Part shown: positions 26,793 through 33,939 of the stretch, one piece after another
How the letters are laid out: each line of letters begins with the position of its first letter
How positions within the stretch are numbered: position 1 is the stretch's first letter
DNA from: Deltaproteobacteria bacterium
Lineage (GTDB): Bacteria > Desulfobacterota > Desulfarculia > Adiutricales > Adiutricaceae
Reading direction: 5' to 3'
NCBI GenBank assembly: GCA_031264185.1
Contig: JAISEL010000120.1
Location: 1 to 43,489 of the forward strand
Length of the DNA: 43,489 bases
Notes under the pieces: generated by a model
Told to the model about the DNA's origin: nothing
The model's input: only the letters and a program-made list of their open reading frames with translations
Database searches by the model: none
Position numbers and translations under genes: made by a program

Positions 26793-27392
26793 TCAGAAAT
26801 CTGACTCAGACTCCGGCGGTTCCGGCCTCTCCTCGTCCGGAAGCGACTGATTTTCATAAAAGGAAAAAAAAGCCAATGAGCCTTTTAACTGATCCAAAAA
26901 AAGCTGGCTCTCCCGATCGTCCAATCTGACCGTCAAAGCCCGGCCTGTTTTAACGACCGACGTTTCCCGGCGGGCTGAATCAACATAGTGAAGACGGACT
27001 GTGGCATCCTGATCTAAACTGTTGACAGCCACGACCGTCACTATAAGTCGGCCGGAAAAAAAATTCTTATTCTCCCCGACCCGGAAAGTGTAATTAACAG
27101 GTCCGGTCTTTTTCTCTCCGCTGCCGCTTTGACCGTCCGCCCTGGGAGCCGCTCCGGCGGTCACTCCGGGTATTACTCCCGGACAGGCCGCTTTCAGACC
27201 CTCCAGCTCCTGGTTCTGAAGTTCCAGCTGGAGCCTTAAGGACGAATTATCGGCCTCTTCCCGCGCCAATCTGGCTCGGGCAGCGGATCTGCCGTGATCA
27301 TAGCTGAAATAATACACTAAAAGACAAAGAACAAAAAGAGCCAGCACTCGCCAAAAACGGTCACCTAAGGGATGCTCTCTTTTCCGGGACAA
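26793..27392 (-). CDS. Membrane-anchored protein of unknown function
   Basis: 199 residues. Basic N-terminus, one helix (about residues 15-31, VLALFVLCLLVYYFSY), a likely coiled coil (35-66, Ala/Arg/Glu/Leu-rich), a Gly/Ala/Pro linker, a beta-rich domain (about 97-180) and an acidic tail. The start is TTG, the only candidate: an in-frame stop lies four codons upstream and the protein has no internal Met; GTGAGGG precedes it as ribosome site. Beginning 23 bases after the double-receiver gene, it is probably the last member of the CheA-like operon. Most of the chain would face the periplasm. It could be a sensor or scaffold for the kinase; no family recognised. Confidence 0.65.
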   Translation of the reverse strand: MSRKREHPLGDRFWRVLALFVLCLLVYYFSYDHGRSAARARLAREEADNSSLRLQLELQNQELEGLKAACPGVIPGVTAGAAPRADGQSGSGEKKTGPVNYTFRVGENKNFFSGRLIVTVVAVNSLDQDATVRLHYVDSARRETSVVKTGRALTVRLDDRESQLFLDQLKGSLAFFSFYENQSLPDEERPEPPESESDF

Positions 27393-27415: not shown

Positions 27416-28324
27416 TTACAAAAGAAGACCGGCAGCCACACTGGCTATAAATTCATTAAGCGACGAAGCCGGAGAAGGCTTTAAAACACAGTCGTCCACC
27501 CCGTTGCCCGGAGTCATTATGACTGATATCTTCTCCATGCTGGCGGTACAGACCACAAAGTAGCAAGGCCCGAATTTGTGGGTGAATTTCAAGGCCTTGC
27601 AGAAATCAACCCCGTTCTGGCCGTCTTCCAGGGTGTAGTCGCTGATCACTATCCTTGGCTTTTCGGCCAGAGTCACGGCCACCGCCTCATCAACGTTGGA
27701 GGCGGTCAGGACGACAAAATTATGATCTTCCAGGTGTTTCTTCAGCAGCTCCCTCTGGTAAGCCGAATCGGAGAGGACTAAAACCCTTCTGGGCTGAGTT
27801 GAGACAGGAGTGGATAGAAGATAGGAAATAAGCTTCTGGGCGCTGTCTAAATGAACTCTTATCCGGTTTAAGTTCGAATCGACTTTGCGGCTGATAATTT
27901 CGCTTTCCTCGCGGCTTAAGTCGCTCCGGAAACGGCCTGGACCTTCCAGGGCCCTGGTGACATAGTTGACCAGAGCTACGGAAGAGATATCCGGCGGCAG
28001 GAAAGCTCTGACGCCTTCGTTAAACGCCAGCATGATTTTATCGCGTTCTGCCTGCTGATGGGAGTCAACAAATATAAACTCGGTTTTAGGCTCGGAATTG
28101 GAGACATTTTGGAGGACTTTAACGCTGGCCTCATCCTCTCCGACATAATCCATAATCACCAGGTTGGGCGAGGCGGAGGCAATCTGACTGACCGTCTCTT
28201 CAACCGCAGAACTGGAATTAAGGGGCGCTCCCTCTGTCACCGCAAACCGATCGCAAGCCAGATAACCGGTCAGTTTGGCCCGCAGTTCCTCATTGCCTAT
28301 CAACATCAGTATGCTGGCCGTCAT
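27416..28324 (-). CDS. Double-receiver response regulator
   Basis: 302 residues. Receiver 1 (about 4-125) is degenerate: a possible phosphoacceptor Asp59 (IMDY) remains, but the acidic pair is replaced by IGNE and the conserved Lys by a Pro (FLPPD). A helical linker (130-170) follows. Receiver 2 (179-300) keeps Asp186, phosphoacceptor Asp229 (ISDY), Thr260 and Lys282 (LKPS), so it is probably phosphorylatable. No output domain. The start follows the CheA stop by 4 bases with GGAG upstream. It most likely receives phosphate from the CheA-like kinase and acts by protein contact, the first receiver perhaps for dimerisation or inhibition. Confidence 0.85.
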   Translation of the reverse strand: MTASILMLIGNEELRAKLTGYLACDRFAVTEGAPLNSSSAVEETVSQIASASPNLVIMDYVGEDEASVKVLQNVSNSEPKTEFIFVDSHQQAERDKIMLAFNEGVRAFLPPDISSVALVNYVTRALEGPGRFRSDLSREESEIISRKVDSNLNRIRVHLDSAQKLISYLLSTPVSTQPRRVLVLSDSAYQRELLKKHLEDHNFVVLTASNVDEAVAVTLAEKPRIVISDYTLEDGQNGVDFCKALKFTHKFGPCYFVVCTASMEKISVIMTPGNGVDDCVLKPSPASSLNEFIASVAAGLLL

Positions 28325-28328
28325 GAGC

Positions 28329-30512
28329 TTACTCCATGGACAAATTATCGTATTCCAGAACTTGGTAAAGCTTTTTCAGCTGCCGTTCGCAGAATCGGTT
28401 AACTTCGTCCAGACTGTGATTGGAAGCAAACATCACCTTAAGCTTTTCCGTCCCGAATCCCATTTCGATCTTATCCAGGCTGGGCACTGTGTCAATAAGA
28501 TCGCCGATCATTGCCAGACGCTTGATGATGAGGTAACCGACCAGGGAAACATCCTGAAAGGAGGGGCCTATCTTAAACATGGCCTGATAAACCCTTGACC
28601 CCTGGGTAATGAGCTTGGAATAGTAAAGGATTGTGCCCAGCGGCGAAAGATGGAACTGATCGTCGTCTTCTTCGGCCACAGCTTTTTCCCGGGTTTCGCT
28701 GCGTTTATACTTGGCCAGTTCGGCTATAAGTTCGGGATCATGGACTTCGTAACCCCGTCCGGCTCGGATCTCGGACAGACCCTGCTCCATATTCTTGACC
28801 GCGTCCAGCAGCAGATCAATAACTTCCTGATTTACTTTGAGTTCTTTTTCCCTGACCTGGTCCAAAACCGTCTCCACCTCATGGACAAAAGTGCCCACGC
28901 TGTTGAAGCCGGTCATGATGAAATTGCCTTTAATGGAATGGAAGTACCTGAAAATGGTATTAACCCGGCGGATATTTTCCGGATCTTTTTCCAGCTGGAA
29001 GATTTCCTCGCTGACCTCATTTAAGATGTTCTGGATCTCCACGAAAAATTCTTCGGCCATGGATTCTTCCATGACGTTTTCCGGAGGCGGGACAGCTTTT
29101 GTCTCAGCTGCGGCCTGAGGCGCTTCCGCCGCCGGGGCGGCCTGAGTCTGGGTAAAAAAGTCATCGCCGTCATCAGGGCCGATAACCGAAGAGCGGTCCA
29201 GAAAACTGTTGTCGGTCATATCCAAAGTCCGGCCGCTGGACATGGCGATCAAATCAAAGGGATCTAAAACCATGCCCAGCTGGTTGCCGCCTAGGATCGT
29301 TGTCCCGGCCACGCCCCTGACCGAAAAAATTTCCGGCAGAGGTATTAAAACCAGTTTCTGGGGCCTGATGAATTCCGAAACTTTTAAGGCTAAACGGCCG
29401 TTTTTGGCGTCAATGATGATGACCGGCAGATAGTCCTGAAAATCATCCTCCGGTAAAGGGGCGCCGGCCAGCAGGCCTCTAAGATCGTGAAGAGGCACTA
29501 TAGTTCCGAGATAAATAATGCTCTCAGTCCGCTCCATGGTTGTATTGATTTCTTTGGCATCAAAGGACTGGGTGGCCACCACATTGCCGATGGGGACGGC
29601 GTAATAGCTTTCTCCGCATCTTATAATCAGGGCATCGGTGATGTTAACCGCCGAAAGCTGGGGAATCTTATAAGTAAAAGTAGTCCCCTGGCCGGGGGCC
29701 GTATCTATGATTATCTCACCGCCCAGATTCTCCACCGTGCTTTTAACCACATCCATGCCCACGCCCCGGCCGGAAATCTCGGTAGCTTCCGAAGCCGTGG
29801 AAAAACCGGGCAGCATGATTAAATTCCAGCACTCGGCATTGGAAATGGCCGCCGCCGCCGCCTGGGGCAGAAAACCCTTCTCGACCGCCACCTGGCGGAT
29901 CTTGGCCCCGTTTAAGCCGTGGCCGTCGTCGCTGACTGAAACGTAAGTAAAACCTTCTTTTTTGTAAGCCGTTAAAGTCAGCTGACCGGTGGGGGATTTG
30001 CCGGCGTGTTTGCGCTCCAGAGGATCTTCCAGGCCGTGGTCAACCGCGTTTCTTATCTGGTGAGCCAGAGGTTCGTACAGGCGCTCGGCCACGGTCTTGT
30101 CAACCAGAGTATCTTCGCCTACTATTTCAAAATTAACCTGGCGGCCTCTTTTTTTAGCCAGATCCCTCACTAACCGGCGGAATCTTAAAAACGTATCCTT
30201 TATCGGCACCATCCGGATATCCATGACCAGATGATGCAGATCTGAGGAAATCCTGTTGGTCGTCAGGGCCACATTTTTGATCATCTCCATGGAATTTTTG
30301 TCAATATTGACAGAGGCCGTGGAAAGATGCCGCTGAAGAATGGAGATATTGGACGCTGATATGATTATTTCACCGGTCAGACCCAGAAGGCGGTCAAGAT
30401 GGGAAATCTTGACCGCCATGCGGTCGAGTTCCGGGGAAGCGGGCACGGAAACCTTTACCCCTTCCGGCGCAGCAGGGGGCTGGACCTCCGGGCTGTTACC
30501 GTTACCATTCAT
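28329..30512 (-). CDS. CheA-type histidine kinase with permuted domain order
   Basis: 727 residues. Order: dimerisation helices P3 (33-100), HATPase P4 (105-285; N box HQIRNAVDHG with Asn155, DDGHGL 195-200, GRGVGMDVV 248-256, GQGTTF 274-279), CheW-like P5 (290-430), an Ala/Pro-rich linker (455-485), an HPt domain (490-590) with phospho-His525 in FHSIKGN, and a C-terminal domain (about 642-720) resembling the P2 response-regulator-docking domain. Canonical CheA is P1-P2-P3-P4-P5, so here P1-P2 sits at the C-terminus and all parts are present. The start overlaps the single-receiver gene by 11 bases. No cheW, cheR, cheB or receptor gene is in the window, so a non-chemotaxis role is possible. 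Confidence 0.88.
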   Translation of the reverse strand: MNGNGNSPEVQPPAAPEGVKVSVPASPELDRMAVKISHLDRLLGLTGEIIISASNISILQRHLSTASVNIDKNSMEMIKNVALTTNRISSDLHHLVMDIRMVPIKDTFLRFRRLVRDLAKKRGRQVNFEIVGEDTLVDKTVAERLYEPLAHQIRNAVDHGLEDPLERKHAGKSPTGQLTLTAYKKEGFTYVSVSDDGHGLNGAKIRQVAVEKGFLPQAAAAAISNAECWNLIMLPGFSTASEATEISGRGVGMDVVKSTVENLGGEIIIDTAPGQGTTFTYKIPQLSAVNITDALIIRCGESYYAVPIGNVVATQSFDAKEINTTMERTESIIYLGTIVPLHDLRGLLAGAPLPEDDFQDYLPVIIIDAKNGRLALKVSEFIRPQKLVLIPLPEIFSVRGVAGTTILGGNQLGMVLDPFDLIAMSSGRTLDMTDNSFLDRSSVIGPDDGDDFFTQTQAAPAAEAPQAAAETKAVPPPENVMEESMAEEFFVEIQNILNEVSEEIFQLEKDPENIRRVNTIFRYFHSIKGNFIMTGFNSVGTFVHEVETVLDQVREKELKVNQEVIDLLLDAVKNMEQGLSEIRAGRGYEVHDPELIAELAKYKRSETREKAVAEEDDDQFHLSPLGTILYYSKLITQGSRVYQAMFKIGPSFQDVSLVGYLIIKRLAMIGDLIDTVPSLDKIEMGFGTEKLKVMFASNHSLDEVNRFCERQLKKLYQVLEYDNLSME

Positions 30513-30906
30513 GATTAAAAACCCTCGCTAGCACGATATTGACCATCTCGGGGGTGGGCGGTTTGATGAGATAATCATCGGCTCCCAGACGCAGGGCCCG
30601 GAATATATATTTATAATCAGCGTGCGTTGAAAGAATAACCAGGGGGACAGTCCTTAACTTGGGATTATTTTTAACCATCTCTGTCAGCTCAAATCCGTCC
30701 ATTTCCGCCATTACCAGGTCAGAAATAATCAGGTCAAAAGACTTAGGGCTGTTCAGATGCTCCAAAGCTTCAACTCCGTTGCCGGCCTCGGTAACCACCA
30801 GACCCATTGTGGCAAAAAGCTCTTTGATGGTCTTCCGAACGGCCTGGTAATCGTCAACCACCAAAACCGATTTACCCTGCCATAAATTTCCATCTGACCG
30901 AGACAT
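30502..30906 (-). CDS. CheY-like single-domain response regulator
   Basis: 134 residues from ATG at 30906, which has GGAG six bases upstream; a TTG two codons earlier is less likely. A complete receiver: Asp18/Asp19 (VVDDY), phosphoacceptor Asp63 (ISDLVMAEMDGFEL), Thr94 (LST) and Lys115 (LIKPP). Nothing follows the receiver. It overlaps the CheA-like gene by 11 bases and is first in the operon, about 70 bases after a recognisable promoter. As the best-preserved receiver here it is the natural phosphate acceptor of the kinase; the target is unknown. Confidence 0.92.
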   Translation of the reverse strand: MSRSDGNLWQGKSVLVVDDYQAVRKTIKELFATMGLVVTEAGNGVEALEHLNSPKSFDLIISDLVMAEMDGFELTEMVKNNPKLRTVPLVILSTHADYKYIFRALRLGADDYLIKPPTPEMVNIVLARVFNHEW

Positions 30907-30975: not shown

Positions 30976-31004
30976 AGTATATCATTAAAATATCACTCAT
31001 TCAA
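30976..31004 (-). promoter_or_regulatory. Sigma-70-type promoter of the CheA-like operon
   Basis: Minus strand: TTGAAT (31004-30999), 17-base spacer, TATACT (30981-30976). It lies 70 bases before the first gene's ATG, with optimal spacing and near-consensus boxes. Confidence 0.55.
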
Positions 31005-32813: not shown

Positions 32814-33428
32814 ATGCAGTCTTTGACCGTAGACGGACAGGATATGGCTTTTGCCGATATAACCGGGACCAACCTTGAGGAGATCCTGGTCTGCCTCATG
32901 GATCACCCCAGCATTAACGGCCGCATCATCACCGGGGTCTACTTAAACGGCGAGCCTTACGAGGAAGAAGTGCCCCACGCGGCCTTGGAAGTGGAACGTC
33001 AGACCATTTCCAGTTTGTCTTTAAAGACCCTGACAATGGAAGACCTGGGTTTAAACTTCCTCCAGGCCGGTCCCGAATACCTGGAAACCCTAATAAGCGC
33101 CCTGCCTAAGATAGTGGAAAATTTCCGCTTAGGCGACGAACAGGAGGCCAACGAACACTTCCTTAATTTCCTGGAGGCCCTCCACCTTTTAATGAGCATG
33201 CTGGAGCAGACGAGGCACATTCTGGGCCTGTGGCAGGGTCAGAACAACGACAGCTCCTCCTCCCTGAACGGGTACCTGGAGTCCCTGGTGGAAATACTGA
33301 ACACCTTAATTAACCTTCAGGAACAAAAGGACTGGATCTTCCTGGCCGATGTCCTGGAGTACGAACTGACCGACTCTTTAGGCCAGCTTAAAGAACTTCT
33401 GCCTAAACTCTGCCAGAAAGGTCACTGA
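32814..33428 (+). CDS. Conserved-looking protein of unknown function, acidic and helical
   Basis: 204 residues with an excellent AGGAG six bases before the ATG. No family recognised. A small beta-rich N-terminus (1-65: LTVDGQDMAF, IITGVYLNGEPYEEEV) is followed by long amphipathic helices (75-200) rich in Leu, Glu and Asn. No signal peptide, no membrane segment and no catalytic motif seen. The next gene starts four bases after the stop and also encodes a helical acidic protein, so the pair probably act together. Helical bundles of this kind are common in flagellar or secretion chaperones and adaptors, but I see no specific signature. Confidence 0.7.
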   Translation: MQSLTVDGQDMAFADITGTNLEEILVCLMDHPSINGRIITGVYLNGEPYEEEVPHAALEVERQTISSLSLKTLTMEDLGLNFLQAGPEYLETLISALPKIVENFRLGDEQEANEHFLNFLEALHLLMSMLEQTRHILGLWQGQNNDSSSSLNGYLESLVEILNTLINLQEQKDWIFLADVLEYELTDSLGQLKELLPKLCQKGH

Positions 33429-33432
33429 CTTT

Positions 33433-33939
33433 ATGACCCGCAATGAAAAAAAAACCCTGCCCGTCAGAGGAGTAAACCGGTCTGACTGTCTTTGGTCCGA
33501 AACATTGGCCGCCTGTCAGGAATGTCTGGATCTGGACCGCCGTTTCGCGGCTGAGCTGGAACGCCAAATTGCCGGGCCGGACCTGGATCCGCTGGAACCG
33601 GCTCTTTGGGAAAGTTTTGTTGAAGCCCGGCGGGATCTTTTTGACTTCACCGCCGTAAATCTGACGCTTCTGGCCAAAACCGGTCCGAAATCAGCTGAGG
33701 GAAATAATGTTGATGAGGGAGAATCCAAGGAAGGAAGTTTTAGTCAGGTCCGAGGAGAGCTTTTAAAATCACTGGCTGAGATGGTGGCTTTGGAAGAAAA
33801 GCTGACTGCCTATCTTTCGGAAAACCTTGGAATCTTAAAGGAAACCATTGATGATCTTTCCAAAAGCCAGGCAATTTTCGCCGGTTACGCCAGTCTGGAC
33901 ACAAAGCCTTCGGCCATAAAATTAGACTCCCTGGCCTAA
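33433..33939 (+). CDS. Helical protein of unknown function, possible FlgN/FliT-type chaperone
   Basis: 168 residues, cytoplasmic, almost entirely helical: one helical region 20-90, an acidic linker (NNVDEGESKEG), another 100-150, and a flexible tail. The C-terminal helix (LLKSLAEMVALEEKLTAYL) and the tail with hydrophobic ends are compatible with flagellar chaperone-like proteins (FlgN/FliT), but no decisive motif is present. It starts four bases after the previous gene and is surely co-transcribed. The stop codon is inside the loop of the hairpin at 33925-33962, and an antisense promoter faces this gene from 34041. Confidence 0.65.
   Translation: MTRNEKKTLPVRGVNRSDCLWSETLAACQECLDLDRRFAAELERQIAGPDLDPLEPALWESFVEARRDLFDFTAVNLTLLAKTGPKSAEGNNVDEGESKEGSFSQVRGELLKSLAEMVALEEKLTAYLSENLGILKETIDDLSKSQAIFAGYASLDTKPSAIKLDSLA

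Follow-up and report, generated by a model that had tools for sequence, protein, structure and literature searches.

A CheA with the permuted domain order P3-P4-P5-P1-P2 in a deltaproteobacterium and its relatives, mostly from the termite gut

In the classical five-domain CheA proteins of Escherichia coli and Thermotoga maritima, P1 and P2 precede P3. A cheA gene in a 43,489-nucleotide stretch of deltaproteobacterial DNA (contig JAISEL010000120.1 of assembly GCA_031264185.1, hereafter the window) encodes all five domains, the catalytic and phosphotransfer motifs and a P2 of the T. maritima type (PF07194), but P1-P2 follow P5. Is this order real, and does such a kinase still serve chemoreceptors, or does it belong to a separate signalling system, as the first-pass annotation of the locus had proposed?

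Domain order of the kinase

Pfam, PDB sequence matches and an AlphaFold model all agree on the order P3-P4-P5-P1-P2 (Table 1), which is thereby confirmed for this protein. T. maritima P3-P4-P5 (1b3q) matches residues 33–417 at about 1e-67, the P1 domains of E. coli and T. maritima CheA match residues 487–583, and the complete E. coli CheA (6s1k) aligns in two blocks whose order is swapped relative to the permuted protein. The H-kinase_dim score just misses the cut-off of 23 bits in the CheA of the window and lies above it, at 25.1 bits, in the ortholog of a related genome (G026); the CheW-like P5 scores 52.1 bits against a cut-off of 23.5. A C-terminal Hpt domain, singled out beforehand as the point on which the proposed order might fall, was found at residues 485–577 with 40.6 bits (cut-off 24.6), behind P5 at 294–423 and not before P3 as in the usual CheA. 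The docking domain P2, likewise placed at the C-terminal end by the first-pass annotation, scores 27.1 bits (cut-off 23).

Table 1. Features of the permuted cheA locus in the window
Feature	Position	Strand	Basis
Permuted CheA, 727 aa, P3-P4-P5-P1-P2	28329..30512	(-)	ORF with ATG start; Pfam; PDB sequence matches; AlphaFold and VIA-align; 25-member alignment
P3 dimerisation domain (H-kinase_dim), residues 34–99	30216..30413	(-)	Pfam, 22.3 bits, marginal; T. maritima P3 aligned
P4 ATPase/kinase domain (HATPase_c), residues 145–285	29658..30080	(-)	Pfam; VIA-align Z 25.4 to 1i58; kept motifs
P5 CheW-like domain, residues 294–423	29244..29633	(-)	Pfam PF01584
P1 HPt domain, residues 483–583, phospho-accepting His525 in FHSIKGN	28764..29066	(-)	Pfam Hpt; PDB P1 matches; VIA-align Z 18.8 to 1i5n
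P2 response-regulator docking domain, residues 642–708	28389..28589	(-)	Pfam PF07194; fold in model; 2lp4 aligned over 478–726
RR1, single-domain CheY-like response regulator	30502..30906	(-)	ATG at 30906; Pfam PF00072, 90.7 bits
RR2, two receivers, first degenerate	27416..28324	(-)	Pfam; alignment; motifs
One-pass membrane protein: long helix (membrane part and coiled coil) and beta domain	26793..27392	(-)	Kept beside RR2; alignment; model mean pLDDT 85
Sigma-70-type promoter, TTGAAT-N17-TATACT	30976..31004	(-)	Sequence; upstream-region alignment

The AlphaFold model, built with 25 sequences, has a mean pLDDT of 61.7, falls below 50 over residues 328–480 and models P5 badly; it contains a five-helix P1 at 483–608 and an alternating alpha/beta P2 at 640–726, both mostly at pLDDT 75–92. 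In addition to the P4 and P1 superpositions listed in the table, the E. coli P1-P2 construct 2lp4 covers the C-terminal part in VIA-align with Z 18.4. Since the internal order of P1 and P2 is retained, the arrangement is that of a circular permutation whose cut falls between P2 and P3.

With a draft assembly of 166 contigs, one might suspect an artefact of assembly or annotation. In 36 genomes, however, a single open frame encodes the same order, among them strain Smac51, whose record CP026657 bears the title of a complete genome; these independent assemblies refute the suspicion, leaving it a negligible probability, and the order is not a product of chance either.

Catalytic and phosphotransfer residues

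P4 carries the N box HQIRNAVDHGLE and the G boxes DDGHGL and SGRGVGMDVVK. Across an alignment of 25 orthologs, 62–87% identical to the CheA of the window, His525, Lys528, His544 and Glu547 of P1 are invariant, as are the core of the N box (HQIRNA.DHGLE), the motifs DDG.GL and SGRGVGMDVV, and much of P5; the mean column identity of the kinase is 75%. The catalytic motifs, described earlier as intact in the one protein, are kept in these orthologs, and judging from these residues the permuted CheA is apparently functional, with all of its working parts retained. The idea that it is far better conserved than other CheAs was rejected: identity between the genome of the window and Smac51 is 72% for the permuted protein versus 70%, 78% and 57% for CheAs of the C6, C157 and C88 types.

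Operon, response regulators and promoter

The end of RR1 and the start of cheA overlap by 11 bases, and 5 bases separate the cheA stop from the start of RR2. The phosphorylation residues of RR1 are kept in 33 orthologs, one of which is cut at its start by a contig end. RR1 lacks an output domain and is distant in sequence from motor CheY: its best PDB match reaches 66 bits, compared with 161.7 bits for the CheY of G026 against a solved CheY. One clean and one double receiver had been described for this operon, and both are there, but RR2 has a degenerate first receiver that lacks the acidic pair and the Lys; in the second, Asp229, Thr260 and Lys282 are invariant. The pattern of residues suggests that two receivers, not three, are likely to be phosphorylated. 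In layout RR2 is FrzZ-like, and the Frz system of Myxococcus likewise combines a CheA with a tandem-receiver partner. The permuted CheA differs from that system in having neither a CheA-receiver fusion nor an adjacent MCP, CheW, CheR or CheB, and in the degenerate first receiver of its RR2.

The membrane-anchored protein reported for the operon is indeed a one-pass protein, conserved next to RR2. Its well-modelled beta domain bears a weak likeness to the periplasmic parts of CcsBA and CcmF; at Z 8–10 and 10–16% identity, this is too weak for a name. Behind it lie genes for a MaoC-like protein, a class-I glutamine amidotransferase-like protein and a GT9-type protein, the last two named from sequence inspection. 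On the other side of the operon, two conserved ORFs lacking Pfam matches (32814–33939) adjoin ybgF, and by eye are possibly flagellar-chaperone-like.

The box TGNTATAMT is conserved at the -10 position 5' of RR1 in 32 aligned upstream regions, while sigma-28 or sigma-54 motifs were found in none of 34. As the first-pass annotation had noted, the operon is devoid of receptor and methylation genes: no MCP, CheW, CheR or CheB occurs among the scanned neighbours of the permuted cheA, which is thus not part of a classical chemotaxis cluster.

One reading of such a locus is a two-component system apart from chemotaxis, in which the membrane protein, or some other input, would drive the kinase, and RR1 and RR2 would act on an envelope process. 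RR1, RR2 and the membrane protein adjoin the kinase in nearly all relatives, neighbouring genes are envelope-related (the YbgF/CpoB family and GT9-type proteins), receptor genes are not nearby and the promoter is of the sigma-70 type. Against this, the P5 domain is retained and highly conserved, and the membrane protein evolves fast, with a mean column identity of 29% versus 75% for the kinase. We consider this reading unlikely, and the gene content of reduced genomes, described below, also argues against it.

Chemotaxis genes elsewhere in the genome and in reduced relatives

Outside the operon the genome of the window encodes six MCPs, three CheW proteins, two CheR matches and FliG. It has four CheA proteins in all, of which the three others show the usual domain order, one of them without an Hpt detectable by Pfam. 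The latter (L121:10676–13360, G000:C88) is an 894-residue CheA lying by CheW, CheR and CheB-like genes, with about 485 residues before P3.

Canonical CheAs stand alongside the permuted one in most genomes and may be the ones that control the motor there. The permuted protein might then play an accessory part in the main array, sharing its receptors and mainly feeding RR1 and RR2 as phosphate sinks or tuning outputs while the motor is not driven. That RR1 lacks an output domain and is unlike motor CheY, and that the MCPs of G026 and of the genome of the window are alike in their signalling part, are both consistent with this; in G026, however, the search turned up no second CheA as a phosphate donor for the retained CheY, and we regard an accessory role as quite improbable.

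G026 (genus g6) is a reduced metagenome-assembled genome (MAG) of 1.5 Mb, 81% complete, in which the permuted CheA is the sole CheA detected. It holds 10 MCPs, one CheW, a classical CheY and FliM; no CheR was found in it. Its FliM starts MAKILSQEEVDALL and contains LSQEEVDALL, that is, an N-terminus of the CheY-binding type. The chance that incompleteness by itself explains the absence of three further CheA loci, plus a CheW locus lying apart from them, is about 0.19^4, near 0.001, provided that the four are independent. A second member of genus g6, G023 (2.1 Mb, 91%), has neither the permuted nor any other CheA; RR1, FliG and FliM are missing too, and a single weak match is all that is left of the MCPs. 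Two receiver-domain remnants with several stop codons (L162 and L164) are present in G023, and neither matches RR1. The permuted gene is also absent from G002 (83%), which has one MCP and keeps three other CheAs, and in G037 (family f2) FliG is present, MCP and CheW are absent and only a fragmentary kinase-domain match remains. A separate system outside chemotaxis fits poorly with a gene that G023 has lost along with MCPs, flagella and CheA, and that alone represents CheA in G026, where MCPs, CheW, CheY and FliM persist. These few and partly incomplete genomes favour a kinase that acts with MCPs and CheW.

An orphan CheW (the sole CheW of G026; L116:7003–11746, which is G000:C40; L118, L127 and L128) lies beside genes for an MlaE permease, an ABC ATPase-like protein, MlaD and a TPR lipoprotein in the genome of the window, G026 and G029. 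It still adjoins a permease-type gene in G023, where all CheA is lost. This CheW is tied to the lipid-transport operon, and its survival in G026 within an MlaE/ABC/MlaD operon counts for the separate, envelope-directed system.

Proposed role

We think it rather probable that the permuted, catalytically intact CheA is coupled to receptors and feeds RR1, RR2 and, at least in G026, motor CheY. A role in the receptor array is favoured because G026 keeps this CheA alone with MCPs, CheW, CheY and FliM, and because G023 lost it together with RR1, FliG, FliM and nearly all MCPs. P3 would dimerise the protein and P5 would dock on CheW/MCP arrays, so that MCP and CheW could control P4 via P5. P4 would phosphorylate His525 on a P1 which, with P2, is tethered to the C-terminus of P5 and not to the N-terminus of P3. 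P2 would recruit response regulators, and phosphate would then pass to RR1 and to the second receiver of RR2; motor CheY would be a further acceptor in genomes devoid of any other CheA, at least in G026. The domain order, intact motifs, conservation, operon and co-occurrence were observed here, whereas autophosphorylation, the coupling of the kinase to receptors by way of CheW, its targets and the sign of its response are presumed.

Several observations weigh against a receptor-array CheA. No receptor, CheW, CheR or CheB gene adjoins it, neither sigma-28 nor sigma-54 motifs were found beside its sigma-70-type promoter, and RR1 is distant from motor CheY; G026 is a single incomplete MAG, and the gene is missing from G002 although three CheAs, with a single MCP, are kept there. 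The earlier view of a signalling system apart from standard chemotaxis survives in part: it has on its side the dedicated RR1 and RR2 and the absence of adjacent receptor and methylation genes, but the co-occurrence seen in G026 and G023 favours the receptor array. The dedicated response regulators leave room for an extra, non-motor branch.

Distribution and origin

A survey of homologues returned the permuted arrangement in 37 of the 41 genomes covered from the taxonomic order, as one closed gene in 36 and interrupted by a contig break in the remaining one (G031, of the window's own family). RR1-CheA-RR2 is kept at nearly every locus whose contig permits, with the membrane protein alongside in nearly all relatives. 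Carriers are Adiutricales-like and mostly from the termite gut (62–88% identity), and include termite-gut type Deltaproteobacteria MAGs, 'Candidatus Adiutrix' and Smac51. By family, the gene is present in 35 of 37 genomes of the window's own family, in both of family f3 and in neither of family f2; of the four genomes lacking it, G002, G023 and G037 were described above and G039 gives Hpt-type matches only. Among 395 genomes sampled from the phylum, no match at E 1e-25 or better to a P5-P1-P2 profile was found outside the family; the contig scan used short peptides of the permuted CheA, leaving room for diverged or independently permuted CheAs in other phyla.

In permuted CheAs 9–29 residues lie ahead of P3, versus about 280–520 in full-length comparison CheAs, and behind P5 the full-length non-permuted proteins have at most 37 residues, except L149 with 212. 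Two further ORFs, L132 (28) and L144 (47), have an N-terminal part too short for an in-frame P1. In G042 the CheA kinase cores of L132 and L133 are identical, one in a full-length CheA and the other in a 412-residue ORF with a nearby stop; this is a recent duplication.

The permuted clade is monophyletic, with a long stem (2.57 changes per column) and no firm sister in a CheA tree that was built without the full set of F1–F17 class references; the donor of P1-P2 is therefore untraceable. Whatever the function, an ancestor might have shed P1-P2 from its N-terminus before acquiring, at the C-terminal end, a P1-P2 gene that had been free-standing, which would not be a permutation in the strict sense. 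Such an origin is in keeping with the long stem and lack of a firm sister of the kinase part, and with the existence of CheAs whose Hpt is separately encoded, according to the sections of a large CheA survey covered here (PMC10782961). On the other hand, the internal order of P1-P2 and their linker are retained, which a simple permutation by duplication and truncation would give equally, and no intermediate was seen. We hold the loss-and-gain route to be possible, though somewhat doubtful.

Relation to other CheA variants

The survey just cited covers 13,673 CheAs, and its sections used here describe losses, duplications, fusions and split forms with no mention of a permuted order (PMC10782961). 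Likewise, the titles and abstracts listed by literature searches on permuted CheAs or a C-terminal Hpt contained no report of this order. In split CheAs (Rhodobacter sphaeroides CheA3/CheA4 and CheAs whose Hpt has its own gene), as described in the survey, P1 is also not tethered to P3 and must reach P4 otherwise; the permuted CheA, in contrast, keeps P1-P2 covalently joined, at the opposite end (PMC10782961). CheAs of the ChpA/Tfp and ACF classes share rearranged Hpt content, and ChpA too has a C-terminal Hpt (PMC10782961), but they mostly carry several Hpt domains and a receiver. Pfam finds a single Hpt and no PF00072 receiver inside the permuted CheA, which places it outside the ChpA/Tfp and ACF types. 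Because the core of CheA is defined in those sections through domain content and not order, the permuted protein is a variant that still belongs to the CheA family (PMC10782961).

Significance

Because P1 and P2 are flexible, the route by which P1 reaches P4 in a receptor array, and the role of the tether joining P1-P2 to P3, are hard to see. A natural CheA with that tether moved to the opposite end, kept in most of an order and seemingly the only CheA in one lineage, is a ready experiment on the importance of the tether. We suggest, tentatively, that most of the order may run an array-coupled CheA whose P1-P2 hangs from P5: within the core signalling unit, P1 would sit elsewhere than in solved arrays, the geometry of phosphorylation (in cis or in trans between subunits) may be changed, and a reduced lineage would use such a protein as its sole chemotaxis kinase. 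Variation among CheAs now includes domain order besides domain content. The order P3-P4-P5-P1-P2 is a natural test of how far the order of its parts matters to CheA, in a protein that is probably still linked to receptors and flagella.
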